From contig NZ_CP009291.1 of NCBI RefSeq assembly GCF_000767465.1, positions 434,001 through 498,000 on the forward strand: a stretch of DNA of 64,000 bases, in the 5' to 3' direction. The notes below the pieces were generated by a model that did no database searches, was not told the DNA's origin, and worked only from the letters and a program-made list of their open reading frames with translations. Positions 14,635-30,753 of this stretch are shown here, one piece after another. The stretch comes from Novosphingobium pentaromativorans US6-1 (GTDB lineage Bacteria; Pseudomonadota; Alphaproteobacteria; Sphingomonadales; Sphingomonadaceae). The translations under genes and the position numbers were made by a program. Each line of letters starts with the position of its first letter. Within the stretch, counting starts at the first letter, position 1.

Positions 14635-16148
14635 ACGGATTGTTGGCAGGCGATCGGGATAATGGCCCGCGCGGCCATCAAGTCGAGGACATCGGCCCGA
14701 TCCTGCTGGTGGAAGACAATCCCGGCGATGCCGACTTCATAGAGGAGATCCTTGCCGATCAGCGGTCGCAGCTGATCCATGCGGCTTCCCTCTCGAGGGC
14801 GAGCGAAATCCTTCGCGACATTGCGGTAAACGCCATTCTGCTTGATCTCGGCCTGCCGGACGGCAACGGCATCGAATGCGTCCATGCCATTCGCAGCGTG
14901 GCCAGCGATGCGCCGATCGTGGTGCTGACCGGACTGGACGAGGAGCGCCTGGCGCTGCAGTGCCTGGAAGCGGGCGCGCAGGACTACATTCCCAAATCGG
15001 ACCTCAAGGGCACGTCATTGGCCCGCGCCATTCGCTATGCCGCGGCGCGAACGCGCGAAGCATCGGAACGCTCCCGCGCGGAGCAGTTGCGCGCGCTCCT
15101 GGCGGGCATCGTCGAGGCATCGGGCGACGCGGTGTTCAGCGGCGGGCCCGACGGGACGATCACCAGCTGGAACCCTGCGGCCGAGCGGATCTTCGGTTAT
15201 TCCTCCGCCGAGGCTATAGGCACCCGCGCCCATGACCTGCTGCGTGCCGTCGATGTCGAAAACGCAGTCGAGCAACGCGGTGTTCTGGCCGTTGCATTGC
15301 AGGACGGTAGCGTGGGCGAGCATGAGATTACCCTCTTGGCGCGGGACGGGCGGCAGATGACGCTGTCGATGGTCGCCTTCGGCCTGCCGGATGCGGAAGG
15401 AACGATCCAGCAGTTCGGCGCGATCTGCCGGGACGTCACCGAGAAGCGCAGACAGGAGGCGCAGATGCGCGCCCAGTTCGAAATGCTCAAGATCCGCGAC
15501 CGGCAGATGCGGCAGCTGACGGCGCGTCTCAATACCGTGCGCGAGGAAGAGCAGAAACGCATCGCCCGCGAAGTGCACGACGAACTCGGTCAATTGCTGA
15601 CTGCCTTGAAAATGGACGTCTGGTGGATGAACCGCAAGCTCGAAGCGGGTACGCCGCTGGCGGACATCCTCGTGCCCAAACTCAACGATGCCAGCGAGCT
15701 GATCGAAGCGACCATCGAGACAGTCCGGCGCATCGCCGCGGAGTTGCGGCCCAGCGCCCTCGATGTCCTGGGTCTGGCTGCCGCCGTCGAAGATGAAGCG
15801 CGCCGCTTCGAGATGCGCACCGGCCTGTCTGCGGTGTGCCGTGTCGACGAAAGCGATCTGCCTCCGCCGGAGATCGCTACGGCCTTCTTCCGGGTGCTGC
15901 AGGAAATGCTCACGAACATTATTCGCCACGCTCAGGCCAGCTGTATCCGGATCGATTTCACGACCACGCAGGAAGACTGGCGCTTGTCGGTGAGTGACGA
16001 TGGCAAGGGCTTTGCCGAGATTCCCAAAGAGGGCGCCTCGCTCGGCCTGCTGGGCATGCGCGAAAGAGTCGAACTGTTCGGCGGTTCCATTCGCATTGCG
16101 CCCAATTCCCCGACCGGGGCGGTCGTGAGCGCAAGGGTGCCGAAATGA
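14631..16148 (+). CDS. Receiver-PAS-histidine kinase (NarL-partner HisKA_3 type)
   Basis: 505 residues from a GTG that overlaps the previous stop by four bases. The order is a receiver domain (Asp72 in ILLDLGLPDG), a PAS domain (about 155-270, SGDAVFSGGPDGTITSWN), a coiled coil, a HisKA_3 dimerisation domain with His316 (REVHDELGQLLTALK), and an HATPase (LTNIIRHAQA, SDDGKGF, GLLGMRERV). There are no membrane segments, so it is a soluble kinase whose own receiver can take input, for example from the upstream kinase. The NarL-type regulator at 16145 is its evident partner. Confidence 0.92.
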   Translation: MNGLLAGDRDNGPRGHQVEDIGPILLVEDNPGDADFIEEILADQRSQLIHAASLSRASEILRDIAVNAILLDLGLPDGNGIECVHAIRSVASDAPIVVLTGLDEERLALQCLEAGAQDYIPKSDLKGTSLARAIRYAAARTREASERSRAEQLRALLAGIVEASGDAVFSGGPDGTITSWNPAAERIFGYSSAEAIGTRAHDLLRAVDVENAVEQRGVLAVALQDGSVGEHEITLLARDGRQMTLSMVAFGLPDAEGTIQQFGAICRDVTEKRRQEAQMRAQFEMLKIRDRQMRQLTARLNTVREEEQKRIAREVHDELGQLLTALKMDVWWMNRKLEAGTPLADILVPKLNDASELIEATIETVRRIAAELRPSALDVLGLAAAVEDEARRFEMRTGLSAVCRVDESDLPPPEIATAFFRVLQEMLTNIIRHAQASCIRIDFTTTQEDWRLSVSDDGKGFAEIPKEGASLGLLGMRERVELFGGSIRIAPNSPTGAVVSARVPK

Positions 16149-16792
16149 GGGAGATGGCAATCGGCAAAATCCTCGTGGCGGACGATCACGCCATCACCCG
16201 GTGCGGGCTGCTCTCGATGGTGCACGAGATCTTCGGCGATGTGGAAGTGGCGGAGGCCGGGGACTCGCAGTCCGTCGTCGAAAATGTCGCGCAAGGGGAC
16301 TGGGACCTCATCCTGCTCGACATGATGATGCCGGGCGGCATGGACATTCTCGAGGTCCTCGGGCGGATCAGGAAGGTCAATGCCGAAGTTCCCATCCTTG
16401 TCATCACTGCCGAGGGGGAGGCCTCGTTTGCAGTGCGATCGATCAAGGCGGGCGCCAACGGCCTGATCAACAAGCATCTGCCGCCTGACGAACTGGTGAG
16501 GGCGATAGAGAAAGTCGCGCAAGGCGGTACCTACCTGCATGCCGATGTCGCCGCGGCTATCGCCCGTTGCATCCGCGACGACGAACCGCTTCCGCACGAA
16601 AGGCTTTCCGAGAGGGAACTGGAAATCCTCAAGGGGCTGGCGATGGGGCGTGCGGTCAAGGAAGTCGCGGCCGACCTTGCCATCAGCGACAAGACCGTCG
16701 CCACCTACATCGCCCGGATCCGGCAGAAGACCGGTCTGGCAAATGCGGTGGAAATGGCGCGATACGCAATGCAGCACGATCTGGTGAACTAA
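16145..16792 (+). CDS. NarL/LuxR-family response regulator
   Basis: 215 residues. The receiver domain has ADDH at 12-15, Asp59 (LILLDMMMPGG) and a lysine in the NKHLPP segment. The C-terminal LuxR-type helix-turn-helix (LSERELEILKGLAMG... IARIRQKTGLANAVEMARYA) should bind DNA. Its ATG overlaps the stop of the kinase gene (ATGA), a strong sign of co-translation and pairing. The target promoters are not evident. Confidence 0.93.
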   Translation: MREMAIGKILVADDHAITRCGLLSMVHEIFGDVEVAEAGDSQSVVENVAQGDWDLILLDMMMPGGMDILEVLGRIRKVNAEVPILVITAEGEASFAVRSIKAGANGLINKHLPPDELVRAIEKVAQGGTYLHADVAAAIARCIRDDEPLPHERLSERELEILKGLAMGRAVKEVAADLAISDKTVATYIARIRQKTGLANAVEMARYAMQHDLVN

Positions 16793-17030
16793 CGCGGGCA
16801 TTCAGGGCCGCGATGCGCCTTGCCTCAGATCCGCCCGCAATTTGCTGGCGCCTGTGTAGTCAAATTTCTGACGTCGGCTGGCGAACGTTCCGACAAGACC
16901 TTGCAGCGCAAATCCCTATTCTGGGCCCATGGTCACCGAGGCAATTCACGGGGGGCAGTGTGGGGGCCTTGTCAAAAGCCAGGGGGGCGTTGGCAAGGTA
17001 CAGGCGCGGGCCAGCATGGGGGCGGCCCGA

Positions 17031-17411
17031 ATGGGGAAGCGACGCTGCGTGCTTATTGCGGACGATGCACGCAGCGTCGCTATCCGGCTGGCGGATCTCG
17101 TGGGGGAAACGGGGCAGTTCGAGGTCGTCGGTCCGGTTTTCGATGGATTGGAGGCAAAGAGGAGCTTTGAGGCCAAGCGACCGGACGCGGTCATCCTGGA
17201 TTTTGCCATGCCGCTTCTTTCGGGGTTGGAAGTGGTTCAGGCGATCCGCAAGGTCAGCAGCACCTGTTTCATCATCGTGCTGACGAACCAGCCGGACGCT
17301 TCGCTCAGGCGGAGCTGCCTGATGGCGGGAGCCGATAAGTACCTTCACAAGTCGCATGATTTCGAAGCGGTGCCCGGCATTCTTGCCAGCCACTTCGAGC
17401 GCATTCCCTGA
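17031..17411 (+). CDS. Single-domain response regulator
   Basis: About 126 residues from the ATG at 17031, chosen because a G-rich Shine-Dalgarno-like stretch precedes it; upstream in-frame starts at 16929 and 17016 would add a glycine-rich leader without domain character. It is a lone receiver: IADD, phospho-acceptor Asp in AVILDFAMPLLSG, LTNQ, and KYLHKS for the conserved lysine. No output domain is present. It closes the two-component cluster after a gap of about 240 bases and could be a shuttle or phosphate sink for the kinases upstream. Confidence 0.85.
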   Translation: MGKRRCVLIADDARSVAIRLADLVGETGQFEVVGPVFDGLEAKRSFEAKRPDAVILDFAMPLLSGLEVVQAIRKVSSTCFIIVLTNQPDASLRRSCLMAGADKYLHKSHDFEAVPGILASHFERIP

Positions 17412-17590
17412 GCCGCAAGCATCAGGGGGAGATCTGGGCGGGGCTCGGCGCTGGGGGGTGTCCGGCCCCGCTCAAACCGAAAAGGGTTTACGCAAGCAGA
17501 AGCCTTTCGGGTCGCACCAACCGCACAATGCGGGTAGAGAACAGGCATAGCGCCTGTATGGCCTCTCGGCATTGCCGGGAGGCCACGTCT

Positions 17591-18244
17591 TTATGGGGCG
17601 GTGCGTTGCGGCGCTGCGAAGCGGATGATCGGATCGCCCGGCGACCACGGCTTCACCCGCAGCATGATCGCCTTGAACAGATCGCTTTCGAGGTGGGCTT
17701 CCAGCCACGGTTTGAGGTGTCGCAGCGGCAAGGTATCGAACCAGGTCCTGTCGACGGCCGCGAACTGGCGTATGAACGGCATGATCGCCATGTCGGCCAG
17801 TCCGCGTTTTGCGCCGCAGAGCTGGCCTTTCCCGGCAAGGCGCGCGTCCAGGTCGAGCAGCACCTCCAGGCCGGCCTCGCGGTGGGCAAGGGCATCGGAG
17901 CCATGGCGCTCAGGGTACTTGTAGCGGTCAAGGTCGTGCTTGAATGTACTGTCGTTGCGGGCGATCAGGTCCGGGGCATCGCGCTCCAGCCAGCCCTCGG
18001 GATCGTTCTGAGCAAGCGATCGGCGCATGATGTCGATGCTCTCGTCGATGACTTCGCCTTCGGCGGTGACGAGTACGGGCACCGTTCCCTTCGGCGAGGC
18101 GGCCAGCATCGCCCCGGGCTTGGCCGACAGCTTCACCTCTCGCAGTTCGCAGGCGGTGCCACTCACCATCAGCGCCAGCCTTGCGCGCATCGCGTAGGGG
18201 CACCGGCGGAAACTGTAGAGGATCGGATCAGGCGCCGCGGTCAT
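17591..18244 (-). CDS. Glutathione S-transferase family protein
   Basis: 217 residues from the ATG at 18244 ([12 protein letters not shown]). The N-terminal thioredoxin-like domain has [13 protein letters not shown], a glutaredoxin-like CPxA active-site segment, a cis-proline in KGTVPVLV and an ESIDI glutathione-contact motif. An all-helical C-terminal domain follows. The substrate is unknown. The start overlaps the 3' end of trhO by 17 bases, so the two are co-transcribed. A longer frame up to 18370 overlaps trhO and is not credible as the start. Confidence 0.85.
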
Positions 18245-19217
18245 TGCGCTGTTCGGCCTGTACCTGTTCGAACCGGGCGCCGACATGGGCCTCGCCCCGG
18301 GCAGCGGCCAGCGCTTCCTGGCGGTGTCGTTCGCGATAGGATTCGCGCTGCTCTTCTGTGCGCTCGCCATGGCAGGCCGGACAGCTCACTCCCTCTTCGT
18401 ACATCGGTGAGGTGGCACCTTCCGCACTGACCGGACGGCGGCAGGCGTGGCACAGCGAATAGGAGCCTTCGACCAGCCCATGGCCGATGGTCACCCGCTG
18501 GTCGAATACGAAGCACTCGCCGCGCCAGAGGCTTTCCTCTTCGGGCACTGTCTCGAGGTATTTCAGGATGCCGCCCTTGAGGTGGTAGACGTCCTCGATG
18601 CCCTCCTGTTTGAGGAACGCCGTCGACTTTTCGCAGCGAATACCGCCGGTGCAGAACATCGCGACCCTGGGCGGCTTGCCGCTGCCCAGCAGGCGTTCGC
18701 GTTCCTGCCGGAACCACTCGGGAAAATCGCGGAAGCTGGGCGTTCTGGGATCGATTGCGCCTTCGAATGTGCCGACGGCCACTTCGTAGTCGTTGCGGGT
18801 ATCGATCACGATGGTCCGGGGATCGGAAATCAGCGCGTTCCAGTCCTGCGCCTCGACATAAGTGCCAACGCTCGCGCGCGGGTCGATGTCCGGCTGGCCC
18901 ATCGTCACGATTTCGCGCTTGAGGCGCACTTTCATGCGATGGAAGGGCATGACCGACGCGCTAGAGAGCTTCACATCGAGATCCGCGCAGTCAGGAAGGG
19001 CGCGAATATGCGCCAGCACTGTGTCGATGCCTTCCGGCGTTCCCGCAATGGTACCGTTGATGCCCTCGGCTGCCAGCAGCAGGGTGCCGCGAATACCCTG
19101 CTTCCGGCAGAGCCGGTCGAGCGGCTCGCGCAGGCTGGCGAAGTCCTCGAAGCGAGCGAAGCGATAAAGCGCAGCTACGCGCAGCGGCGCGTCGATGTCA
19201 CGGCAGTGTGTGTCCAT
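18228..19217 (-). CDS. trhO: tRNA uridine(34) hydroxylase TrhO (YceA family)
   Basis: 329 residues from the ATG at 19217. TrhO uses oxygen to hydroxylate U34 of tRNAs on the way to 5-methoxy/5-carboxymethoxy-uridine. The N-terminal acylphosphatase-like domain contains [19 protein letters not shown]. The rhodanese domain has [10 protein letters not shown] and the active-site loop [14 protein letters not shown]-terminal Cys-rich segment (CHACRRPV... CPACHG) could bind metal. It is upstream of and overlapping the GST gene. Confidence 0.92.
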
Positions 19218-19651
19218 GGCAGGCCCATAGCGCCATGCGGCGGCCGCGTCAGCAGCCCAGCGCGAGATCGCCACCATATGAAGGACCGCCCGGCGACAAT
19301 TTTGCTTGCGACCGGCCGAGCCTGCGGACGATCCGGAAGCTCCGTTTAAGTGCGTCGACCGGAATAGTGGACATCACGGGCAGGGGGCAGCGCTTCATTT
19401 GCGCGCGCCAGTTTCAGTCATCCAAGTGGCCTTTGAGTCACCCTTGAAGCTGCCGATCGTTTGGCAAATGCTCCGCGGCGCCGCGGCACAACAGATCGAT
19501 AATTCCTGTGACATGATACAAGGAAAGCGCGCTACGGTCGGATTCCAGTTTGAGGTAAGTTCGCTACGCTAACACAAGAAGACGCTTGCCCTCTTTGAGT
19601 TGTATGCCGATACCTGCTTTGTCACTTCTCTCAATTCAGTGGTGAGAATTT
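19218..19651. other. Intergenic region, AT-richer, between trhO and the araC-type gene
   Basis: About 430 bases with visibly lower GC than the flanking core genes. No convincing ORF, RNA gene or strong promoter was recognised. It probably contains the promoter of the AraC-family gene and marks the left transition into the accessory region. Confidence 0.5.
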
Positions 19652-20782
19652 GTGCACGGCCCGGTCCGCCAACCCTTGAGAAAGACGACGGAGGAGCACT
19701 CCGTTTCTTCTTTAGCCGACGCGCCCCCTCGCAAATACGATTACCGCAAAAGCGCACGGGCAGCCATTGCCGACCTCGGCAATGATGCGAGGTTCAGTGT
19801 GCCGCTTGGGGTGATCGGTCCGTTTTCACAATGGCTGGGGTGGCCGGACTGGCTGCGTGAGGGCACTTCGATACCGGGTTGCGGCAAACTGCCACAGCGA
19901 ATTTCGATGGCTGACGACATCACGATTACCGCCAACTTCCTTGAACGTGGGCATGGCCCTGAGCTGATAAGGAAAACTCTGCAGACAAATCGACTGATAA
20001 CCGGACCGACGGCTTCGATCATCATCAGGAATGCACCCACCCTTGAACAAGCGTTGATTCATCTGACCTCATTGATCGAAGCCACAAACATGAACGTCTC
20101 GCTTCAATTCGCTGCGACGGTTCGGCGGGCTGAGGTTAATGTCGTGCAGAAATTGCCCCTCGGTCCGATGCTGGATTTCGTGGCAGCCATCAGGCTCATC
20201 CTCGTGATGCGGACCATTGAGTGGTTCTTGCTGGCTGACCTGCAGCCGGTCGGCTTGACCCTTTCTCTTCCGTATGACCAATCGATCGAAGGCCTGTTCA
20301 GGGAGAAAGGGGTGAAGGTCGAGATGGGGGCAGACCACAATCGAATAAGCTTCCCTTCGGAATGGCGTGAGACGTCCAATTCGGATTACGACGCTTCCTT
20401 GTGGTATACTGCCTTGCTGCGCTTGAAAAAGGCGGACGAAATCAAGGGTAATCGAGAATTGGCAGCCCGCCTTCGCGGACAGGTTGCAACCAGCCTCGCG
20501 TCTCAGGGAAAGGTCTTGCGCCTGAAAGAAATTGCGGTGCGTGAAGGAGTAACGGTCCGCACTCTCGCTAGAAGGCTGTCGGCTACCGGAATAAAATTCC
20601 AGGAACTTGTAGATCAGGAACGCCGGCAGTTCGTCGATGGCTTGATGGCCGATGCCTCACTTACGCTGGCGGATGTCGCCAGCATGTCCGGTTTTTCGAA
20701 CTCGTCGAGTTTCGGCCGCGCATTCCAACAGTGGCATGGTCAGTCCCCCGGGGCGTATCGGGACGCGCTCAATCGGCATTGA
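19652..20782 (+). CDS. AraC-family transcriptional regulator
   Basis: 376 residues from a GTG; the true start may be slightly downstream. The N-terminal 230 residues resemble the arabinose-binding-like sensor domain of OruR/ArgR-type AraC regulators (LGVIGPFSQWLGWPDWLREG at the start, IRLILVMRTIEWF later). The C-terminal two-helix HTH is clear: RLKEIAVREGVTVRTLARRL and LTLADVASMSGFSNSSSFGR, ending HGQSPGAYR. Base composition is less GC-rich than in neighbours, hinting at transfer. It lies 358 bases upstream of, and in the same direction as, the envelope-protein operon, which it may control (inference). Confidence 0.88.
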   Translation: MHGPVRQPLRKTTEEHSVSSLADAPPRKYDYRKSARAAIADLGNDARFSVPLGVIGPFSQWLGWPDWLREGTSIPGCGKLPQRISMADDITITANFLERGHGPELIRKTLQTNRLITGPTASIIIRNAPTLEQALIHLTSLIEATNMNVSLQFAATVRRAEVNVVQKLPLGPMLDFVAAIRLILVMRTIEWFLLADLQPVGLTLSLPYDQSIEGLFREKGVKVEMGADHNRISFPSEWRETSNSDYDASLWYTALLRLKKADEIKGNRELAARLRGQVATSLASQGKVLRLKEIAVREGVTVRTLARRLSATGIKFQELVDQERRQFVDGLMADASLTLADVASMSGFSNSSSFGRAFQQWHGQSPGAYRDALNRH

Positions 20783-21140
20783 CAGCTGGTATGCAGCAAA
20801 GGTCCCACCTCATTGTCCTGATTTGTAGATGGTTTGTCACCAGATGTGCATTGCGCCGGGAGCCGATTCACACCTTAATGATCAACCTGAATTCTATGGC
20901 TTTATGCTGAATTGTCTTCTCGACGCATAGACACCGGGAGGTGTTGGATCAGGCTTCGGTCTGCGAGACACCAACACCGCAAATTCCCGCCCAACGTTGG
21001 GAGAGCTATCAATACTTGCATGTAGGAACGCACTTTTCCAGAAATGGGGTGCGTGCAAAGCGGAGTATCCGCACTGCGCCATGTTTGGGTGCAGTCGATC
21101 GAATATTATCCTGTGAAGAGCAATCGGATAGGGGGCATGC
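20783..21140. other. Regulatory-looking gap between the AraC gene and the envelope operon
   Basis: 358 bases, AT-richer than the surroundings, with no credible ORF. It carries a spaced inverted repeat and a 12-bp palindrome sharing a GTTGG half-site (20940-21001), and presumably the operon promoter near its right end. Confidence 0.5.
20940..21001. promoter_or_regulatory. Candidate operator: GTTGG-type inverted repeats
   Basis: GGTGTTGG (20940-20947) and CCAACACC (20971-20978) form an exact inverted repeat with a 23-base spacer. A perfect palindrome CCCAACGTTGGG lies at 20990-21001. All share the half-site GTTGG/CCAAC. They sit 140-200 bases upstream of the envelope operon start and downstream of the AraC gene. 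Binding by that regulator is inference. Confidence 0.4.
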
Positions 21141-21668
21141 ATGCACAAGTGTATCCGTAAAGTCGCTTATTGGACGATATTGCCTGCGGCCGTGATACTT
21201 TCTGCTACGGGCACCGTTGCCCAGGATCGCGACCGTGATGACGGATACTACGGCGGGATGGACCTGCACCTGGTCTGTTACGGTGAGGGAGAGAAGCCGA
21301 ACGTCCAGACTGTTCCGATCTTCCACTGGAGTCGGCGTCATCACGAATTTGATACCGATTACGCGACCGTCATGTCGCGCCGGCAATTCGACAGCATCGT
21401 CCAGATCGACATTCACGGCGACGAGGGCCACATCTGGCTGCCCAAGAAGTTGATCCCGCCGATCCATTCGGGCGGACAGGACGGCTGGTGGGAACTGCAT
21501 GACTTGCAGGTCGGCTACTCGGAAATTCACGCAAAGTATCGCCTCAACGGCCTGAACAAACCGAAGGTCAAGATCAACCGCCAGACCGGGCATATCAGTG
21601 TCGACGGGATCGAGGATTTCCGTGGCACTTGTGAAGAGCATAATTCCGGCGAACAACGCCGGTTCTAA
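21141..21668 (+). CDS. Exported protein of unknown function (envelope operon gene 1)
   Basis: 175 residues. A signal peptide with a basic start and hydrophobic core ends near ATGTVAQ (residue 28). The mature protein is polar and rich in His, Asp and Tyr, with MDLHLVCYGEGEKP at its start, a central IDIHGDEGHIWLPKKL segment and two cysteines (LVCYG and GTCEE) that could form a disulfide. I do not recognise a named domain. A G-rich Shine-Dalgarno (GGGGG) precedes the ATG. It is the first gene of the operon running to 27806, with a 27-base gap to the next gene. Confidence 0.8.
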   Translation: MHKCIRKVAYWTILPAAVILSATGTVAQDRDRDDGYYGGMDLHLVCYGEGEKPNVQTVPIFHWSRRHHEFDTDYATVMSRRQFDSIVQIDIHGDEGHIWLPKKLIPPIHSGGQDGWWELHDLQVGYSEIHAKYRLNGLNKPKVKINRQTGHISVDGIEDFRGTCEEHNSGEQRRF

Positions 21669-21695
21669 TTTCTCCTGAAAGTATAGGAGGTCCAG

Positions 21696-22148
21696 ATGCG
21701 TAGCGTTGTTCTGTCGGCAGGCCTTGCAATACTTCTCTACGGCTGTGGATCGGGAGCGAAGGCCCCTGCCGCTTCGGAGACGGAGGCAAGTTCGCCGGCC
21801 TCCGAACCGGCTTCTGCGCCGACGAGTGAAGCTTCCGCTGCTCCCCAGCCTGTAGCGCCTGTCGAAGCGCCGAGCGCAAGCGAACCCTCACCCGCTTCTG
21901 CCGCCTCGTTGAAGCCACGCATCCCGCTGTTCAATGCAATATGCGGTAACGCTATCGAGGTTCACGCCAACGAAGGCGGGCCGGTGTTCATCAATGGTGA
22001 GGAAACGAGCCTCAAGAAGTTCAACGACAACTATTTCGAGGCCTCACGAGATGGAACGACGATCTCCATTTCGTTCAATCCGGACGGCTCGTTGAGCCTC
22101 AGTTTCTCGGGACCCAACCGGGCCAACGGGATCTGCACGCTCAAGTGA
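21696..22148 (+). CDS. Small lipoprotein (envelope operon gene 2)
   Basis: 150 residues. The N terminus ends in LLYGC, a lipobox with Cys17, so it is a predicted lipoprotein. A low-complexity linker of Ala, Ser, Pro and Glu spans about residues 20-75. The compact C-terminal domain (about 80-150) has strand-forming segments ICGNAIEVHANEGGPVFING and TISISFNPDGSLSLSFSG and a pair of cysteines (ICGNA, ICTLK). No named family was recognised. The Ser/Pro tether suggests a domain held away from the membrane. An AGGAGG Shine-Dalgarno precedes the start. Confidence 0.78.
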   Translation: MRSVVLSAGLAILLYGCGSGAKAPAASETEASSPASEPASAPTSEASAAPQPVAPVEAPSASEPSPASAASLKPRIPLFNAICGNAIEVHANEGGPVFINGEETSLKKFNDNYFEASRDGTTISISFNPDGSLSLSFSGPNRANGICTLK

Positions 22149-22205
22149 AGAACGCGTGGCTGTCGCGCTCGGGTGCATTGCACGGCCACGCAATTTGGAG
22201 GAGTG

Positions 22206-22907
22206 ATGTCGATGATCAAGCATATTCTGGCTGGAGCGGGCCTTGTCGCGGCTCTCTGTGCCGCCCCCGCTCTGGCTCAGGAAGCGCCGCGGATATTTGC
22301 CGGCAGTAACGGCGAGATCGAGGCAACTTTCTCCAACAATTGCGTGGTTTATTACGGCGCCGACGGCAGGCGCAAGAGCGCCAACAGCAACTGCTCGCGG
22401 AGCCAGAGGAGTCAGGCTGACACTGGCGTAGCGGCCTATCGGCGGGAACAGGGAATGGATGGCTATCCCGGCAGCGAAGCGCCTCCGGGAGGCTTTGGAA
22501 GCCAAGGCAGTCACGCCGGTCACCACTACGGGCCGCCCGAGGTCGTGATGGATCGCCATGGGCGAAGCCATGTCAATGTCGGTGCTGCATGCATCGTCTA
22601 CTACGATCGCGATGGCGAACGTAATGGGACGAATGACCATTGCTCTCATTCGGACCGGAGCAAGGCCGATGACGCGATGGAATCCTATCGCAAGGAACAG
22701 GGACTGACGCAAAAGCATCACTCGGGCTACACATATGGCGTTCCGGTCCTGCGCCTGCGAAACGGCAATTATCAGGCGACCGTTTCGGGAACCTGCACGG
22801 TATATTTCAACGACAAAGGCGGTCTCATGAGCGCACTGCCGGGCTGCACGACAGGCGAAAAGGCAAACGCCGCAGTCGCCGTGCTTCAATATCGCAGGAA
22901 TAACTGA
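22206..22907 (+). CDS. Exported protein with three cysteine-containing repeats (envelope operon gene 3)
   Basis: About 233 residues from the ATG at 22206 (GGAGG just upstream; 22212 is also possible). The signal peptide ends near APALAQ. The mature part is three copies of a roughly 55-residue unit: a strand, then Cys-x-VY[YF], a D/N-x-x-G turn, a second Cys about 17 residues on in copies 1-3, and in copies 1 and 2 a YR-EQG ending. The third copy is the most diverged. A Gly/His-rich linker separates copies 1 and 2. The paired cysteines could form a disulfide in each copy. I do not recognise a family. Confidence 0.75.
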   Translation: MSMIKHILAGAGLVAALCAAPALAQEAPRIFAGSNGEIEATFSNNCVVYYGADGRRKSANSNCSRSQRSQADTGVAAYRREQGMDGYPGSEAPPGGFGSQGSHAGHHYGPPEVVMDRHGRSHVNVGAACIVYYDRDGERNGTNDHCSHSDRSKADDAMESYRKEQGLTQKHHSGYTYGVPVLRLRNGNYQATVSGTCTVYFNDKGGLMSALPGCTTGEKANAAVAVLQYRRNN

Positions 22908-22936
22908 TCGGGCTCGGGACAATCGGAGGAAGCGTA

Positions 22937-25003
22937 ATGGGCAAGGGCAAGCTGCTGGCTGGCGCAACCGGAGGTCTCCTGCTGCTGGCGAGCGGTTCTG
23001 CTCTTGCTGATGATGACGGGACGGACCCCACTCCGGATACTCTGGCCTTCTCGATCGAGAACATGGATCGGTCGGTCAATCCCGCCGATGACTTCCTGCG
23101 CTATGCGTCGGGCGGCTGGTTCGACCGGGTCAAACGGCCAGCCGATCAGCCGACCTTTGGTTTCATGCAGTTCATAGCCAACCGGATCAGCCGGCAAATG
23201 GCCAGCGTATTGACCGATGCCGCCGCGACGTCCTTCTCGGCGGCAAAGGGAAGCCCGGCGCAGCAGGTCGGAGCCTTGTACAGTTCCTATGTCGATGTCG
23301 ATCGGATCGATGCCACTGGCCTTGCCCCGATTGCCGGGGAACTCGCGCGGCTGGACGCCGTCGAGAGCAAGAAGGAGCTGGCGGCCTACCTCGGCACGTT
23401 CTCGGCGCACACCGGGCACTGGCCATTGGTCAGTCTCGATATTTTCCCGGAGCTGACCGATGTTTCGCGCAACGCAGTTTATATGGAGATTGGCGAGCGG
23501 GCGCTTTCTGTTGATGCCATCTACGAAAGTCCCGAAGACTCTCCGCTTCGCACGATTTACCGGGAATACGTATCGGCGATGCTGGAAGTCGCCGATGTGC
23601 CTGCGGAGCGTGCGAAGGCGATTGCCGCGACATCGCTCGCAATCGATTCCATGCTGCACGCAGGCGAACTCGATCCGGTCAAAAAGGTCGACAAGCGCAA
23701 CGTCAACAACCCGCGGACAATGACTCAATTGCGCGCCGAGTCAGCCGGTTTCGAAATCGATGCGTATCTTCAGGCTCTGGGCCTGCAGGAACCGGACCGG
23801 GTCATACTGGTCGATCCCGATGCGGCCCGCACACTCGGCAAGGTGATGGCTGCCTTCACCGTCGACGAGTTGAAGGATTATCTCAAGCTGCGCCTGCTCC
23901 AGGCATTCGGATCGGTTCTGAGCACGAAGTTCGAGGAACCGAAGAAGCAGGTGAACATCGCCTTGCTCGGTGCCTATTCCGAAAAACCGCGCGAAGAGAC
24001 GGTCGTCGAATTCATGGAGAAGTCGCTGGGTCAGCCTCTGGGGCACCTTTACGTCGACAACTTCTTTTCAAAACCGAAGGAAAATGCGGGCCTGGACATG
24101 ATCCGGCGCATCCAGGCTGCCTTTCGAAAGCGGATCGAAGCAAACGACTGGATGGCCGAAGCAACGCGGTCGGCGGCGCTCGAGAAGGTCGACGCGCTCT
24201 ACTACCGCGTCGGTTATCCCGACCGTTGGATCGACTATGGCAAGGTCGAAGTCGGCGACGATCCAGTGCAGAACCTGATCAACCTTCATGAATTCGAAAT
24301 GGCCCGGATGGCGGCGAAGCAGAACGCCCCGGTCGAGTTCTGGGCCTTTTCCGAACCGCTGCATACGACACCGACGGTAGTAAACGCGGCCTACGATCCC
24401 ACCATCAACGGGTTCCAGGTTACGGCCGCCATCGCGCAGCCGCCTACTTTTTCGGTAAATCGTGATGCGCCGCTCTATTTCTGCCGCCTCGGCGCGATAA
24501 TCGGCCATGAAATGACCCACGGCTTCGACACCGGTGGACGGAATTTCGATGCGAAGGGAAACCTTCGCAACTGGTGGACGGCCAAGGACGGCGCCCGCTT
24601 CGAAGCGGAGGCACAGAAGCTGATCGACCAGGCAAGTGCCTTCGAGGCGCTTCCCGGAACCTTCATGAACGGCGGCCTCACCGTGACCGAGAACCTTGCC
24701 GACATCGGCGGCATCGCACTCGCCCACGATGCCTTGATGAACTACCTTGCAGAGCATCCCGACGAGAACGTCGAGATCGATGGCCTCAGTCCGAGCCAGC
24801 GCTGTCTCATCGCCTATTCCCAGCTCTGGGCAGAGCAGCGATCGGACGGTTCGATGCGGGTGCAGCTGGAAGACAACCACGCGCCGGGCATCTATCGCGC
24901 CGTTGCTCCGCTGCAGCATCTGGATGCGTTTTACGAGGCATTCGACATCCACGAAGGTGACCCGATGTGGCTTGCCCCTCAGAAGCGGGTCGACATCTGG
25001 TAG
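22937..25003 (+). CDS. M13 (neprilysin-like) zinc metallopeptidase (envelope operon gene 4)
   Basis: 688 residues. A signal peptide (GGLLLLASGSALA) is followed by the peptidase M13 N-terminal lobe and the catalytic domain. The zinc motif HEMTH is near residue 524 (IIGHEMTHGFDTGGRNFD), the third ligand motif ENLADIGG near 584, and the chain ends in a Trp as in many family members. It should be a periplasmic or extracellular endopeptidase of short peptides. It is a full-length member, not degenerate. The gene starts 29 bases after the repeat protein and is followed 21 bases later by a membrane-protein gene. Confidence 0.92.
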   Translation: MGKGKLLAGATGGLLLLASGSALADDDGTDPTPDTLAFSIENMDRSVNPADDFLRYASGGWFDRVKRPADQPTFGFMQFIANRISRQMASVLTDAAATSFSAAKGSPAQQVGALYSSYVDVDRIDATGLAPIAGELARLDAVESKKELAAYLGTFSAHTGHWPLVSLDIFPELTDVSRNAVYMEIGERALSVDAIYESPEDSPLRTIYREYVSAMLEVADVPAERAKAIAATSLAIDSMLHAGELDPVKKVDKRNVNNPRTMTQLRAESAGFEIDAYLQALGLQEPDRVILVDPDAARTLGKVMAAFTVDELKDYLKLRLLQAFGSVLSTKFEEPKKQVNIALLGAYSEKPREETVVEFMEKSLGQPLGHLYVDNFFSKPKENAGLDMIRRIQAAFRKRIEANDWMAEATRSAALEKVDALYYRVGYPDRWIDYGKVEVGDDPVQNLINLHEFEMARMAAKQNAPVEFWAFSEPLHTTPTVVNAAYDPTINGFQVTAAIAQPPTFSVNRDAPLYFCRLGAIIGHEMTHGFDTGGRNFDAKGNLRNWWTAKDGARFEAEAQKLIDQASAFEALPGTFMNGGLTVTENLADIGGIALAHDALMNYLAEHPDENVEIDGLSPSQRCLIAYSQLWAEQRSDGSMRVQLEDNHAPGIYRAVAPLQHLDAFYEAFDIHEGDPMWLAPQKRVDIW

Positions 25004-25024
25004 GTCGGTTCGAAAGGCGGAAGA

Positions 25025-25783
25025 ATGGCTGACACGGAACTGAACGCAGCTGACGGATCTGAAAGAGACTATCCGTTCTACAACGGATGGCCGATCGAGA
25101 TTTCCGCCCTGAAGTGGCTGGTGCCGCTGGCAGCGGTCGGTTTGGCCGTTGCCGTTCTGCTGAGGCATTTGCCGATGTTCTCGCAGGGCTACCTGCAGCT
25201 TGCCCCGGGCATGCTGCTGACCCTTCTTCCGCTCCTTGGAATGGCCCTGGTCGCGGGCAGGCACTGGACCGCTTTGTTTCGACGGGTTCGCCTGAAAGAC
25301 ATCGGCTGGATGTTCGCCTTCGCGTTGCTCAACTACGTGATAGCGGTTCCTTTGGGCTTTATCGTGCTGAACTTCGTCGATACCGAAACAAACGCTGCTA
25401 TCGAGGGGTTGAAGACCTTCGGACAGGCAGACAGGGTTCTGTTCTTCGTGAACTCCATACCTCAGCTCATCGGGGAAGAGCTGATCTCGATCGTGCCCTT
25501 CCTTGCGCTGCTCTACTATCTGACGCGGAAGTTTGGGCTATCGAGACGGACCGCAGTGATTATCGCCTGGTTGGCTACTGCCGTGTGGTTTGCTGCCATC
25601 CATCTGCCGACCTACAACTGGAATATCCTCCAGTGCCTGATCCTCATCGGCGGAGCCCGGCTTGTCCTGACGCTGGCGTACCTCAAGACCAAGAACCTGT
25701 GGGTCTCGGCCGGGGCGCACATAATCAATGACTGGATGACGTTCACGTTGACATTGGTCGGCGCGAGCATGGGGGCCGGTTGA
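25025..25783 (+). CDS. CPBP/Abi-type intramembrane protein (envelope operon gene 5)
   Basis: 252 residues with about seven to eight membrane helices. The last part matches the CPBP (CAAX protease and bacteriocin-processing) layout: GEELISIVPF for motif 1, WFAAIHLPTYNW for the second, and AHIINDW for the last. Motif 1 normally reads EExxxR; here the arginine position is isoleucine. Catalysis is therefore less certain, though the Glu pair and both His are kept. The stop codon abuts the next ATG (TGAATG), so the two are coupled. Confidence 0.82.
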   Translation: MADTELNAADGSERDYPFYNGWPIEISALKWLVPLAAVGLAVAVLLRHLPMFSQGYLQLAPGMLLTLLPLLGMALVAGRHWTALFRRVRLKDIGWMFAFALLNYVIAVPLGFIVLNFVDTETNAAIEGLKTFGQADRVLFFVNSIPQLIGEELISIVPFLALLYYLTRKFGLSRRTAVIIAWLATAVWFAAIHLPTYNWNILQCLILIGGARLVLTLAYLKTKNLWVSAGAHIINDWMTFTLTLVGASMGAG

Positions 25784-26824
25784 ATGTCGAAATGGTCTTG
25801 CATGATCGCGCCAAAGATTCTCGTGCCGGTACCCACTGCAATGGCGCTGGCCATTTCGCTCTTGTCGATCACGTTTGTGTCGAAGGCAAACGCGCAAGGG
25901 GCCGTTGCCAGCTCTCCGCCGGAATTCGCGCGTGACATCGACAGGCTCAAGCCGGGGGAATGGGTTTGGGCACCCGAAGTTGCCCCCAGCGGTCCTGTCC
26001 TGATTTACGTCGATCTCTCGCGCCAGATCGCCATGGTCTATCGCAACGGCATTCGCATCGCGGCAACCACGGTCTCCACCGGAAGACCCGGCCACCCGAC
26101 GCCGACCGGCGTTTTCACCATCCTGCAAAAAGACGCAAGGCACCGGTCCAGCACTTATAACAACGCGCCCATGCCCTACCAGCAGCGGCTGACATGGGAC
26201 GGCGTGGCGCTGCATGCGGGCGGCCTGCCGGGTTATCCCGAAAGCCATGGCTGCGTGCATCTGCCGATCGGATTTGCACGCGAGCTGTTTGCAATCACCG
26301 ATCTGGGGGGAACGGTCGTCGTCGAAGGCGATGCCGCGGATCACGTAGTCACGAGCGAGAACAGCCTGCTCGCCCCGTTCAACGAGCGCGGGGAGGCGAT
26401 TGAGAAGCTGACCTTGCGGAGCGGCGAACGCTTTCGCTGGAATCCCGAACTTGTTGCCAGCGGTCCGCTTTCGATCATCGTCTCCAAGCTGGATCAGCGC
26501 ATCGTGGTATTGCGCAGCGGCGTGGAGATCGGGCGCAGTGTCGCCACCATCGATGATCCCGACCCCGGTTCGCATGTCGCCACCAGGATCATCCAGAATG
26601 GACAGGCGAAATGGACCTTTGTCGGCATGACAGGGCACGAGGATGAAGATGGCAAGGCCCTTGACGAAGCGCAACTGAACAGGGTCCGCATGCCGCGTGA
26701 ATTCCGTGAGCTGCTGATGGCGGCAGTCGAACCGGGCACGACAATGCTGATTACCAATTCACGCGTAGGCAGCGGAGCAAGACCGCATCTCACGCTGGTG
26801 GATGCGATCGAACATCATGAATGA
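25784..26824 (+). CDS. L,D-transpeptidase with a second degenerate YkuD-like half (envelope operon gene 6)
   Basis: 346 residues with a signal peptide ending near KANAQ. The first YkuD domain has TPTGVFTI, HAGG and the active-site SHGCVHLP with the catalytic cysteine near residue 155. This enzyme type cross-links peptidoglycan or attaches proteins to it. The second half (about 225-340) starts with a similar strand pattern (SGPLSIIVSKLDQRIVVLRSG against SGPVLIYVDLSRQIAMVYRNG in the first) but lacks the SHGC motif, so it looks like a duplicated, inactive domain. The start is coupled to the CPBP gene. Confidence 0.88.
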   Translation: MSKWSCMIAPKILVPVPTAMALAISLLSITFVSKANAQGAVASSPPEFARDIDRLKPGEWVWAPEVAPSGPVLIYVDLSRQIAMVYRNGIRIAATTVSTGRPGHPTPTGVFTILQKDARHRSSTYNNAPMPYQQRLTWDGVALHAGGLPGYPESHGCVHLPIGFARELFAITDLGGTVVVEGDAADHVVTSENSLLAPFNERGEAIEKLTLRSGERFRWNPELVASGPLSIIVSKLDQRIVVLRSGVEIGRSVATIDDPDPGSHVATRIIQNGQAKWTFVGMTGHEDEDGKALDEAQLNRVRMPREFRELLMAAVEPGTTMLITNSRVGSGARPHLTLVDAIEHHE

Positions 26825-26883
26825 TCGGTGGGGGTGCTTCCGACAAAATATCCGTGAAGGCTGATCGAAGGAGGAGAAACACC

Positions 26884-27279
26884 ATGATCTGCAAGAGTTC
26901 CGGAAGAAAGCTCATCTCGGCGAGCGCCGCGATGGCACTGATGCTTGCGCCAACAGGTGCTGCAATGGCGAGGGACCGCGACCACGATCATGAACGCCAC
27001 CGGCATCATGACGACGGCCACAGCGCGGCAGGTGTTATCGCCGGCGTCGCTATTGCGGGTGTGCTGGCTGCCGCCATCGCCAGCAAGAAGAAAAAGGAAC
27101 GCGAGCGCGAGCGATATTACCGCAATAACAGCTATTATTATCACCACGATCGCGAAGCTTTCGCACCCGAGGGTTCGAGAGACACATGGTGCTATCAGCA
27201 AACACGTTCGTGCTACACCCACGGCCACTATTCCAGCCGTTGGACGAGCTACGAATTCGGGCATGATCGGAGGTTCTGA
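26884..27279 (+). CDS. His-rich exported small protein (envelope operon gene 7)
   Basis: 131 residues from the ATG at 26884, which has a GGAGGAG Shine-Dalgarno; an earlier in-frame ATG at 26821 overlaps the previous gene. The signal peptide ends near GAAMA. A block of alternating Arg, Asp and His follows, then an Ala/Gly/Val hydrophobic segment of about 19 residues that could span a membrane, then a Lys/Arg/Glu stretch, and a Tyr/His-rich tail with two cysteines. The His/Asp block could bind metal ions. No family was recognised. The stop overlaps the next start (TGATG). Confidence 0.75.
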   Translation: MICKSSGRKLISASAAMALMLAPTGAAMARDRDHDHERHRHHDDGHSAAGVIAGVAIAGVLAAAIASKKKKERERERYYRNNSYYYHHDREAFAPEGSRDTWCYQQTRSCYTHGHYSSRWTSYEFGHDRRF

Positions 27280-27806
27280 TGAAAAAGGTGTTCAAGAACT
27301 GTGCCATGCTCGCGCTGCCGTTGGCTGCATTGCTTGCTGCCGGCTGTAGCCAAGGAAAGGCCGAAGCAGCGACTGAAAGCAGCACTGAAACGGCAGAGGA
27401 CGCCAATACCGTTCCTGCGGCCGTTCACATGCAGATGAGTGTCGACGATGCGCTGAATGAGGCGATGAAGGATTCGCTCAATACCGGCCAGATCACCATG
27501 CTCAAGAACATGGCCCACCAGGTCACCGTGGGTGAGCGCTGCGAGGGTTTCGAGGTTGATCAGGATCGTTTTGCCAAGGAAATGAACCTGATCCACTATG
27601 ATGAAGACGGAAAGCAGATGGATCTGACCGAAGCGGAGCTGAACACGCTTGAGAAAAAGGCTCTGCTCGGGTTTGGCATGGCAATGGGATCGCAGATGGC
27701 GATCGCCGCGTTCGACGTGAAAAGCTATTGCAATGCTGCCGAAGAAGAACGCGCCAGCCTGGCCAAGGACGACGATTCCTCTACTATCTGGAAGACGCCA
27801 GCCTGA
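27279..27806 (+). CDS. Lipoprotein (envelope operon gene 8)
   Basis: 175 residues. The signal ends in LLAAGC, a lipobox with Cys23. A short Ala/Glu/Thr linker leads to a mostly helical acidic domain with two cysteines (GERCEGF and KSYCNAA). Helical segments such as MSVDDALNEAMKDSLN suggest a small helical bundle. No family was recognised. It overlaps the previous gene by one base and is the last gene of the operon, with a hairpin 19 bases after its stop. Confidence 0.78.
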   Translation: MKKVFKNCAMLALPLAALLAAGCSQGKAEAATESSTETAEDANTVPAAVHMQMSVDDALNEAMKDSLNTGQITMLKNMAHQVTVGERCEGFEVDQDRFAKEMNLIHYDEDGKQMDLTEAELNTLEKKALLGFGMAMGSQMAIAAFDVKSYCNAAEEERASLAKDDDSSTIWKTPA

Positions 27807-27824
27807 TCAATCGCTTTGATACCT

Positions 27825-27861
27825 CACTGGATCGGCCGGTTTCATGCCGTCCGGTCCAGTG
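27825..27861 (+). terminator. Hairpin ending the envelope operon
   Basis: An 11-bp stem with one G-T wobble (arms 27825-27835 and 27851-27861) starts 19 bases after the last stop codon and is followed by GCTTTTC. The T-run is short, so it may be a weak intrinsic terminator. Confidence 0.55.
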
Positions 27862-27904
27862 GCTTTTCATGCAGGCAACCTGGCCGCGCTACCCTATGGC
27901 ATAT

Positions 27905-28207
27905 TCATCCGAACACCGCCATTCTCTCGGAGAAAACTCGATAGGAAGCCAGCACGGCAAGTACCGCTCCGGCTGGCAGGGAAAAACAGAGGAGCCAAGG
28001 TCCAAACAGCGGCCCGGGCCTGGTCTGCCGAAGATGCGCGCCAGTCCCGATGGCGGCGAAAACCACGCCCATGGTCAGATTGCGGATCGCTCCGCCGGGA
28101 TAGAGCAAGCCGCTGACGGATACGATCGCTGCCAACCCTGTCCAGAGCGCAAACGATGCGAGGCTCATCCTTCGAATTACCGACTGCCTGTCCATGAATT
28201 CGTCCAT
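27905..28207 (-). CDS. Small membrane protein
   Basis: 100 residues from the ATG at 28207 (a second at 28195 is possible). Three hydrophobic segments alternate with short basic loops: about 17-36 (ASFALWTGLAAIVSVSGLLY), 42-56 and 68-88. No signal peptide or named domain was recognised. It is convergent with the envelope operon, so it is probably not part of it. The hydrophobic pattern supports real coding, but identity is unknown. Confidence 0.5.
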   Translation of the reverse strand: MDEFMDRQSVIRRMSLASFALWTGLAAIVSVSGLLYPGGAIRNLTMGVVFAAIGTGAHLRQTRPGPLFGPWLLCFSLPAGAVLAVLASYRVFSERMAVFG

Positions 28208-28459
28208 TACGCTCGGGGCGCGCGATGCAGCCAGGTTTCGCCGTTTGCTAATTGCCAATGGGCTTGGCCACCTATTCTGCAAGCGCTTCCAGTTACACCG
28301 CATTTTGCCTCAATGGTATGTACGACAAGCGCTGCGACGATGTTACGTGTACCTTGCATGAGTGCAATGAGCCGCCCAACATTCACATTGCGCTGCGGAA
28401 ACAGTTGATTGCGTTTCTTCATGAATTTCGAAGCACGCGCATGCTGCTGGGGATTGGCG

Positions 28460-28660
28460 ATGAAAAAGCTGATGTGGTTTCTGCTGGCTCGATGGCTTGT
28501 CTTTGCAGGGCTGGCGATGGCGCTCTTTGCGGCGACTGCGAGCGATGCCGCGTCTCGCCAGCTTGAGGCGCCAAACGTCACTGCCCGGACGCCGGAAGCC
28601 ACGGCAGGCGAGCAATCTGAGGTGGTCCCGCCTTCCTGTACAGGTTTGCGGCTAAGTTAA
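28460..28660 (+). pseudogene. Exported ORF truncated by the IS element
   Basis: From the ATG at 28460 the frame encodes a signal peptide-like start (MKKLMWFLLARWLVFAGLAM and an alanine-rich end) and about 25 mature residues. It then runs into the left end of the IS near 28636 and stops at 28660 inside it. The C terminus is therefore IS-encoded and the original protein is lost. There is no clue to its function. It could also be a chance ORF. Confidence 0.4.
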
Positions 28661-28677
28661 GCTCATCCGGTTGTTGT

Positions 28678-29568
28678 TTACGCCGCCATTCTGGTGATCA
28701 GATCATGGGGGGCATGCCCCCCATGATCTGAAGCGTCGATTTGCCCATATGCCTCTGCCGGGGTTTTGCCTGCAAGGCGTGAGTGAGGCCGGTGATGGTT
28801 GTAATAGGCGAACCAGCGGGACAGGCCTGCGCGCAGTTCGGAACCCGTCTCGAAGGCGTGCAGATAGACGCACTCGTACTTCACCGAGCGCCACAGGCGC
28901 TCGATGAAGACGTTGTCCATCCAGCGCCCCTTGCCATCCATGCTGATTTTCACTTCGGCCGCCCGCAGCACGCCGGTGAAGGCCTGCGAAGTGAACTGGC
29001 TGCCCTGATCGGTGTTGAAGATGTCCGGCTTGCCAAAGCGGGCCATGGCATCCTCCAGAGCCTCGACGCAAAAAGCCGCGTCCATGGTATTGGACAATCG
29101 CCAGGCCAGCACCTTGCGGGTGGCCCAATCCATGATCGCAACGAGATAGAGGAAGCCTCGGCGCATCGGTAGATATGTCACGTCCGCACACCACACCTGA
29201 TTGGGCCGCTCGATCTTCATGTCCCGCAGCAGATAGGGATAAATCCGATGCTCCGGGTGCGGATCGCTCGTGCGCGGGCGCTGGTAGATCGCCGCCAGCC
29301 CCATCTGCGCCATCAGCCGTCGTACCCGGCGGCGGCCCACCGCATGACCAAGCCGCTGCAGGTGCCGCACCATCTGCCGGCTGCCGTACCACGGACAGTC
29401 CATGAACGTCTCGTCGATTACCCGCATCAGCGCCAGCGTCTCCTCGCTCTGAGGCGCAGGCGTATAATAATAGGAAGACCGGCTGATCGACAGCAGGCGG
29501 CACTGCGCCGCGATCGACAGGCGCTGGTGAGCAGGCTCGATCAGCAATCGCCTCTGGCCCGCGCTCAT
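28678..29568 (-). CDS. IS3-family transposase OrfB (DDE integrase)
   Basis: 296 residues. The rve-type catalytic core has the first Asp in VWCADVTYLPM, the second in FNTDQGSQFTS and the Glu in FIERLWRSVKYE, followed by the family ending YNHHRPHSRL. An HTH-like N-terminal region precedes it. Its ATG overlaps the orfA stop (ATGA), so expression could be by coupling as well as by the -1 frameshift usual in this family. A 32-bp perfect palindrome lies in its last codons. Confidence 0.93.
   Translation of the reverse strand: MSAGQRRLLIEPAHQRLSIAAQCRLLSISRSSYYYTPAPQSEETLALMRVIDETFMDCPWYGSRQMVRHLQRLGHAVGRRRVRRLMAQMGLAAIYQRPRTSDPHPEHRIYPYLLRDMKIERPNQVWCADVTYLPMRRGFLYLVAIMDWATRKVLAWRLSNTMDAAFCVEALEDAMARFGKPDIFNTDQGSQFTSQAFTGVLRAAEVKISMDGKGRWMDNVFIERLWRSVKYECVYLHAFETGSELRAGLSRWFAYYNHHRPHSRLAGKTPAEAYGQIDASDHGGHAPHDLITRMAA
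28696..28727. repeat. 32-bp perfect palindrome inside orfB
   Basis: Every base pairs with its mirror: eight bases, six G, CATG at the centre, six C, and the complementary eight bases. It falls in the last 20 codons of the transposase gene near the left IS end. As DNA or RNA it would form a very stable hairpin, able to block read-through in either direction. Confidence 0.85.
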
Positions 29569-29849
29569 CGACCGGAGGCTTTCGCCAAAAAATCCCGCTC
29601 CACCAGCAATTGCCCGATCTTGGCATGCAGCTTCTCGATTTCCGCTTCGGTCTCCGTCTTCGACGCCTGCTCACCGCCGTCGAACAGGCTGGCCATCCCG
29701 TCCACCGCCTGACGCTTCCATCCCCCGATCATCGTATGGTGGACGCCGTGCTTCGCAGCCAGTTCCGCCAGCGTCAGTTCACCACGGATCGCCTCCATCG
29801 CAACTTTCGCCTTGAATTCCGCGCTGTAGCGCTTTCTCGTCTTCTTCAT
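29565..29849 (-). CDS. IS3-family transposase OrfA
   Basis: 94 residues from the ATG at 29849 (MKKTRKRYSAEFK); the open frame extends to 29885 but the upstream part overlaps the IS end. The HTH DNA-binding domain is clear (ELTLAELAAKHGVHHTMIGGWKRQA), followed by the leucine-zipper-like helix KLHAKIGQLLVERDFL. It is upstream of and overlaps orfB. Confidence 0.9.
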   Translation of the reverse strand: MKKTRKRYSAEFKAKVAMEAIRGELTLAELAAKHGVHHTMIGGWKRQAVDGMASLFDGGEQASKTETEAEIEKLHAKIGQLLVERDFLAKASGR

Positions 29850-29894
29850 TCCCGTCCATTCCTTAGGTCGGGATGAGCTTAACACCCTGTCCAG

Positions 29895-30521
29895 ATTTCC
29901 AGCACCACGTCACTTGGCTGGGCGGTTAGAAACGGACCGAGGCTGCCCGGTCGTATTCCCATCTGGCTTCCAAAGTTAGTTGAAACGAAGCGCAGGCATT
30001 TGTCCCATGCGGAGTTCGAACGGTTCTACGCTAGCGTGTCAGCCGAGCACGCCAAGCTGTACGTGATGCTAGGCCTCTACTCGATGGCGCGCCCGACGGC
30101 GATCTTGCAGCTTGAGTGGGATCGGGTTGATTTCCATCGCAAGCAGATCGACTTCACTCCGCCTGGACATATTCGCACGACTAAGCGGCGCACGGTGGTC
30201 TCAATCTCCGATGACCTGCTGCCATTGTTAGAGGCCGCCTATTCCCAACGGACGAGCGCGTATGTGATCGAACGTGCCGGAGAGCCCATCAAGTGCATCA
30301 AAAAAGCCTTCCAGGCAGCGTCCGAAAGGAGCGGTGTCCATGCTACCCCATATACGCTGCGTCACACTGGAGCAGTCTGGGCGGCTGAGGCTGGCGTGTC
30401 GATGGCCGAACTTGCCCAGTTTATGGGCCATGACGACGATCGGACGACCCAAAAACACTATGCCAGGTTTAGTCCTGAGCACCTTCGTGGGGTCGCAAAC
30501 GCGATCCGTCGCCGGCCCTGA
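29895..30521 (+). pseudogene. Tyrosine recombinase (integrase), N-terminal part lost
   Basis: An open frame starts exactly at the right end of the IS and encodes 208 residues of the C-terminal part of a phage/island integrase. The first catalytic Arg is in SMARPTAILQLEW, the Lys in TTKRRTVV, the second Arg in TPYTLRHTG, His in FMGHDD and the nucleophile Tyr in KHYARF. The first His of HxxR is Tyr here. The N-terminal arm-binding domain is missing and is not found on the other side of the IS. The frame may still be translated from a TTG at 30000. It lies 69 bases from the 3' end of tRNA-Pro, the usual position for an island integrase. Confidence 0.85.
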
Positions 30522-30590
30522 AGGTTCAATCTGAACCTTCAACCCCTGTTCATAGGATGGATAAAAATGCTTAGATTTTATAGAGTTAGT

Positions 30591-30667
30591 TGGTCGGGGA
30601 GAGAGGATTCGAACCTCCGGCCCCTGCCTCCCGAAGACAGTGCTCTACCAGGCTGAGCTACTCCCCG
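30591..30667 (-). tRNA. tRNA-Pro (CGG)
   Basis: A cloverleaf reads on the minus strand with a 7-bp acceptor stem (30661-30667 with 30595-30601), D arm GTAGCTCAGCCTGGTAGAGC, anticodon loop TTCGGGA giving CGG, T arm with TTCGAAT, and encoded CCA (30591-30593). Its 3' end faces the integrase remnant, so it was probably the attachment site. Confidence 0.95.
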
Positions 30668-30753
30668 ACCGATCGTGCCACTTTGAAAGCGGCCCGAGGC
30701 AGGAGCGCGCCTATAGAGAGCGATTCCGGGGCTGGCAAGGGGCCAAAGTCACT

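Follow-up and report, generated by a model that had tools for sequence, protein, structure and literature searches.

A window of 64,000 nucleotides (nt) from Novosphingobium pentaromativorans US6-1 (NZ_CP009291.1, positions 434,001-498,000, forward strand) was analysed, and all coordinates below are counted within it. The window carries eight co-directional genes on the + strand, here designated A to H, the products of which are predicted to be exported, lipid-anchored or membrane-embedded and include an M13 peptidase (D). The genes are preceded by the gene of an AraC-type regulator (R) and lie at 21141-27806 (Table 1). This operon is a member of a modular, so far undescribed set of genes for exported proteins, found repeatedly in alphaproteobacteria around the genes of M13 peptidases. 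The linkage of the components, in varying subsets across several alphaproteobacterial orders, is well supported.

Layout of the operon and its predicted products

An earlier reading of the window from its letters alone (the sequence-only reading) had described eight same-strand genes with short or overlapping junctions, a closing hairpin, an upstream AraC regulator and an AT-rich composition, and all of these were recovered. From A to H the junctions measure 27, 57, 29, 21, 0, 59 and -1 base pairs (bp), and the strong fold behind H was evaluated on the 55-nt stretch 27818-27872 against 200 shuffled sequences, of which none folded as well (0/200). The stretch at 19.5-28.0 kb has a guanine-plus-cytosine (GC) content of 0.580 compared with 0.633 for the whole window, and is its lowest-GC stretch of 8.5 kb. 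Between 19400 and 30600 the + strand yielded no sigma-70-like site, so that neither a single promoter nor multiple promoters are demonstrated for the operon. Two start codons are uncertain: the longest open reading frame (ORF) of R begins at a GTG while one gene call begins later, and C may start at the ATG at 22206 or at that at 22212.

The proposed location of all eight products fits simple rules, i.e., hydrophobic N-termini, several membrane segments in E, a lipobox-like site in H (AAGC) and an atypical one in B (LYGC), and predicted AxA cleavage sites in A, C, D, F and G. Five small proteins had been described as lacking a recognised family, and A, B, C, G and H indeed stay below the cut-offs in both Pfam and NCBIfam. 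The assignment of D as M13 peptidase holds with two Pfam domains over cut-off. M13 peptidases are defined by the zinc motifs HExxH and ENxxD, and D resembles neprilysin, PepO and Zmp1 in its full-length match and in its intact motifs GHEMTH and ENLADIGG, but differs in belonging to a separate clade (see below). Its best relatives of solved structure are 9eyg, 7k1v and 3zuk, and HExxH is present in 22/22 M13 proteins of the test loci. CPBP/Rce1-like proteases carry Glu-Glu and His motifs. In E, which had been read as a CPBP-type membrane protein, the residues E151, E152, H193, H232, N235 and D236 are invariant across four aligned rows; E has the features of a CPBP/Rce1-like protein and is a predicted protease. 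F had been called a two-domain L,D-transpeptidase. The YkuD match is confined to residues 73-180, and no Pfam match was obtained for the second half. As in L,D-transpeptidases of the ErfK/YbiS type, the catalytic domain contains an SHGC motif, which is invariant in five aligned rows; F differs from them by the extra C-terminal half and by the residue after SHGCV, which is His in the window, in Croceicoccus and in a plasmid of Sphingomonas paeninsulae (locus L188) and the usual Arg in others. In G, the residues C103, C110, Y111, W120 and T121 are invariant in five rows.

Table 1. Features of the operon and of the adjoining region, in window coordinates.
Feature	Coordinates	Strand	Characteristics
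R, AraC-type regulator	19652..20782	+	HTH_18 1.8e-15; Arabinose_bd 3e-07
A, exported protein	21141..21668	+	2 Cys in mature part; no family over cut-off
B, likely lipoprotein (atypical lipobox)	21696..22148	+	Cys domain of ~75 amino acids (aa)
C, exported protein	22206..22907	+	three Cys repeats of about 55 aa (3 repeat matches)
D, exported M13 (neprilysin-type) zinc peptidase	22937..25003	+	PF05649 6.4e-78; PF01431 7.2e-47
E, multi-pass CPBP/Rce1-like protein	25025..25783	+	PF02517 3.7e-11
F, exported YkuD L,D-transpeptidase with extra C-terminal half	25784..26824	+	PF03734 2.1e-21
G, exported His-rich protein	26884..27279	+	C-terminal CY...YSSRWT motif
H, lipoprotein with helical domain	27279..27806	+	lipobox; structure model with predicted local distance difference test (pLDDT) score 73.9
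Terminator-like hairpin	27824..27862	+	minimum free energy -28.2 kcal/mol, z -5.4; then CTTTTC
Putative MscS-type channel remnant	28460..28617	+	first ~50 codons; ends at IS3 element
IS3-family element	28618..29907	-	ORFs 28678-29568 and 29565-29885
C-terminal piece, presumably of an integrase	30000..30521	+	173 aa; ORF list
tRNA-Pro(cgg)	30591..30667	-	ARAGORN, Rfam

Recurrence of the gene set around M13 peptidases

A colinear counterpart was found on a Croceicoccus contig (L039; loci are numbered with L and genomes with G), which carries C-D-E-F-G-H in the same order as the window. Window positions 22208-27806 align colinearly to it with 78.5% nucleotide identity over 5641 columns; the contig starts inside C, so that A and B lie outside of this comparison, and in the assembly D is split into two ORFs. 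The ratios of non-synonymous to synonymous substitution rates (dN/dS) amount to 0.076 for C, 0.161 for the tail of D, 0.174 for E, 0.134 for F, 0.121 for G and 0.162 for H, showing that C, G and H, which lack a recognised family, are under purifying selection. In Croceicoccus, H is followed after 118 bp by a gene for an MscS channel of 804 aa. The peptide encoded at 28460-28617 of the window is 38% identical to the N-terminus of this channel over 50 aa (pairwise E-value 1e-4, 0/2000 shuffles), while in a search of the whole window the match is weak (E-value 0.093) and the Croceicoccus channel is the only match at this place. This stretch is read as the remnant of a ninth operon gene, encoding a putative MscS channel. 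A small ORF resembling a membrane protein (27905-28303, - strand) lies between hairpin and remnant; it is absent between H and the channel gene in Croceicoccus.

Among 385 genomes of the class, no M13 protein besides D itself is more than 34% identical to D (29-34%), and two plasmid genes of Leisingera thetidis and Palleronia sp. reach 43-45%; the neighbourhood on the Leisingera plasmid holds relatives of G and H. Scanning contigs with the C-terminal parts of these three M13 proteins resulted in at least 17 loci at 53-85% identity over this part, and among the matches listed the next step is at most 51%, almost all Bacteroidota. The window, the two plasmids and the 17 scan loci kept were taken as 20 D-clade loci. 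A tree built from 43 M13 proteins groups D with 18 relatives in one clade, with a support of 0.93. The M13 proteins of L141, L142 and L143 were placed in a second, deeply separate clade with the other alphaproteobacterial M13 proteins. The presence of the same partners beside two M13 lines suggests that the enzyme activity was kept, rather than one inherited block. Within the D clade, one branch unites N. mathurense, Sedimentitalea and the marine bacterium B5-7 and another Nitratireductor, Leisingera, Mangrovicoccus and Poseidonocella, both with a support of 1.0. Such mixing of orders, together with the plasmid copies, fits horizontal transfer.

According to the sequence-only reading, a lack of co-occurrence of the genes elsewhere would have spoken against its proposal. 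The genes do co-occur: next to the conserved order in Croceicoccus, A to C and E to H stand beside M13 genes in other genera, which argues for an envelope gene set rather than a chance grouping. In single-sequence searches, a relative of at least one of the seven other genes adjoins D in 11 of the 19 listed loci outside the window (L037, L039, L041, L042, L043, L046, L047, L048, L051, L052 and L053). Overall, relatives of B occur in L043, L046 and L141 and those of C in L039, L047, L048 and L121. A match of the iterated E profile in L053 probably reflects general CPBP drift; a stricter profile did not list this locus. With iterated domain profiles, at least one partner gene was found in 16/20 and at least two in 11/20 of the listed D-clade loci, window included; for this, the gene calls of the relatives were home-made, and the family profiles were built from the test loci and iterated on non-control matches. 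The partners include DUF3772 MscS channels, AraC and CPBP genes, SH3_3 domains (L037, L046 and L047) and LysR-type genes, the latter named after the annotated LysR of L186, which matches the same profile. Moreover, domains are fused with each other: the A domain is joined to PASTA-like domains in L048, and PASTA-like+C+A and SH3+C fusions occur. As a control, 63 further M13 loci were examined, in which the 14 partner families and the LysR family were found in 0/63, R-type AraC in four and AraC7 in two; this control is weak, since nearly all of its loci come from Bacteroidota and the test loci themselves had supplied the seeds of the profiles.

Searches starting from the partners led back to the set. 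Proteins similar to A were found in 35/396 genomes of the order, window included, with a relative of 60% identity in G837. L141 holds A, B, a PASTA-like protein, M13 and two LprI/MliC-like genes, and L142 holds R, E, A, R, SH3N+CTD, G, H, M13 and an LprI-like gene; R-type AraC genes flank the set there too. Among six A loci that were extended, L146 and L147 contain MscS and L148 and L149 no separate partner. Six of 385 class genomes are positive for H; H-G stands beside M13 in G236 (L143), beside an LprI/MliC gene in G459 (L144) and also occurs in G363 (L145). Of the 11 loci with an H match, nine have G directly next to H; the matches in the other two are weak. Across the 19 genomes or records that contain the D loci, the H profile has four matches, all beside D (4/4), and the E profile likewise four, of which three adjoin D and one lies next to an AraC gene and an SH3+C gene. 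Over 392 order genomes, with at most six candidates scored per genome, E matched twice, in the window and in L142, both within clusters. The F profile gave 15 matches at 1e-20, and six of the best ten adjoin D. On Paracoccus marcusii plasmids E follows an SH3N-type gene and an AraC gene is present (profiles, partly annotation only), and on the Sphingomonas paeninsulae plasmid LprI_MliC, F and PASTA-like+A follow one another, with no M13. As side observations, Sedimentitalea has a second locus (L121) with AraC, SH3+C, E and another CPBP gene and without M13, and a membrane protein of ~222 aa with an LLYE.MSWLVFYP-like start, outside of the profile set, is encoded near A or E genes in L126, L132, L133, L187 and L188.

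The co-occurrence of two protease types with small Cys proteins in one operon raises the possibility that E and D mature or export a small product destined for secretion, for which one of the Cys proteins would be a candidate. E also matches MrtJ of the JDVT-CTERM sorting system (NF033192), albeit weakly (E-value 0.014, 16.1 bits), far below the cut-off of 75 bits. No transporter is present among the eight genes, no precursor-like gene was recognised, and the small proteins stay where E or D is absent (L121, L144, L145 and L188). A peptide maturation system is therefore regarded as very improbable, leaving the exported-peptide processing proposed by the sequence-only reading without support.

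Synteny with four relatives ends at about 19254, and on the right side the IS3 element has a 100% identical counterpart on a Novosphingobium sp. MBES04 plasmid. An integrase scar had been proposed on this side, and a C-terminal piece indeed lies beside tRNA-Pro(cgg); we take it to be an integrase from the sequence-only reading and the R-H-R-H-Y pattern rather than from a family search. Only this piece was found instead of the complete integrase expected for a tRNA-integrated element. Such an element would also have a direct repeat of the tRNA 3' end at its far border, and between 30520-30720 and 14000-30000 there is no exact repeat of at least 11 nt. Low GC, the IS3 element and the integrase piece, the plasmid copies and the variable order and content would all fit the view that shared mobility brought accessory exported proteins together in islands and on plasmids, with no joint action. 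However, such passenger linkage is quite improbable considering the adjacency of G and H, the same partners with two M13 clades, the PASTA-like+C+A and SH3+C fusions and the operon order kept at the identity seen in Croceicoccus.

Lysozyme inhibitors and a possible role at the cell wall

Several relatives combine the set with domains of lysozyme inhibitors. LprI and MliC domains occur in L051 (Nitratireductor) and L041, the latter also with a META domain, and MliC was found in the relatives L041, L051, L052, L141 and L144. In total, 24 genomes or records gave 17 MliC matches, of which five lie in cluster stretches (genomes G837, G581, G591, G592 and G459) compared to 0.07 expected (binomial P 7.5e-9). 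The set shares with lysozyme-inhibitor loci (MliC/PliC, LprI) the small exported Cys proteins and, in relatives, the LprI and MliC domains, but the window copy has no inhibitor match over cut-off. To our knowledge, known lysozyme inhibitors are single genes without M13, L,D-transpeptidase or CPBP partners.

These inhibitors, the domains that bind the wall and what M13 peptidases and L,D-transpeptidases are known to do suggest a protective role. Tentatively, and at somewhat less than even chances, the set might be a regulated kit of exported proteins, disseminated horizontally, that shields the periplasm and the peptidoglycan against lytic enzymes and small peptides from hosts, predators or competitors. 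A dedicated regulator of AraC or LysR type would control the kit. The small Cys proteins (SH3, PASTA-like, A, B, C and G) would act on or near the peptidoglycan, and LprI/MliC proteins, where present, would block lysozyme. The closed cavity of neprilysin admits only short peptides, and the M13 peptidase might accordingly destroy small attacking peptides. The L,D-transpeptidase might reinforce the wall, the MscS channel might relieve pressure upon wall damage, and the CPBP protein might serve in processing or protection at the inner membrane.

The same components could instead tune the cell's own peptidoglycan, by L,D-transpeptidase cross-links, control of lytic enzymes by LprI-like and Cys proteins and peptide turnover by M13, in response to a signal of growth or stress and without a role against attackers. 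Such endogenous remodelling, the part of the functional proposal of the sequence-only reading that keeps a basis (L,D-transpeptidase, SH3 and LprI domains), is in line with the YkuD domain in F, the SH3 proteins and the MscS channel partners, and LprI domains can act in this way, as reported for Salmonella ScwA (PMC7933661). Like the operon, ScwA is described there as horizontally acquired, of low GC, a disulphide-bonded periplasmic protein and tied to peptidoglycan enzymes; it differs in being a single regulator, for which the abstract names no M13, L,D-transpeptidase or CPBP partners (PMC7933661). The MliC domains beside M13 and the patchy, horizontal distribution fit an accessory better than a housekeeping role, without being decisive, and we consider remodelling rather unlikely.

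Several observations weigh against a protective kit built around M13. Four of the 20 listed D-clade loci (L040, L044, L045 and L055) lack a partner, L044 being cut at the contig start. M13 was seen in 3 of the 11 A loci examined outside the window, and copies of A, E, F and H-G are also found in its absence: among three plasmid relatives of E (43-45% identity), L186 is accompanied by a LysR gene only and L187 and L189 are without M13. The weak H matches L139 and L140, proteins which we take to resemble carboxymuconolactone decarboxylases, have no partner. In the window's own genome the number of MliC matches is zero, and the LprI_MliC profile has no match in the window. Furthermore, the ScwA study describes this LprI-domain protein as regulating peptidoglycan enzymes with no role in lysozyme resistance (PMC7933661).

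A farther-reaching form of the protective kit would be a dedicated, horizontally mobile wall defence system of alphaproteobacteria, in which interchangeable Cys proteins that bind the wall recruit M13 of either clade, L,D-transpeptidase, lysozyme inhibitors and MscS under an inducible regulator, as a wall counterpart of intracellular defence islands. It would let the cell withstand foreign lysozymes, bacteriolytic enzymes and small peptides. We regard this form as unlikely.

A full-text literature search, covering few subscription journals, found no description of such a gene set. New beyond the sequence-only reading are the lysozyme-inhibitor partners, the second M13 clade and the ninth gene, read as a channel gene, cut by the IS3 element. 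Exported families unmatched in both Pfam and NCBIfam (the partner domains as well as A, B, C, G and H) gain a shared context. If the protective reading is true, alphaproteobacteria would carry mobile kits against wall lysis, which annotation now shows as scattered hypothetical, 'M13 family metallopeptidase' and 'CPBP family' genes.

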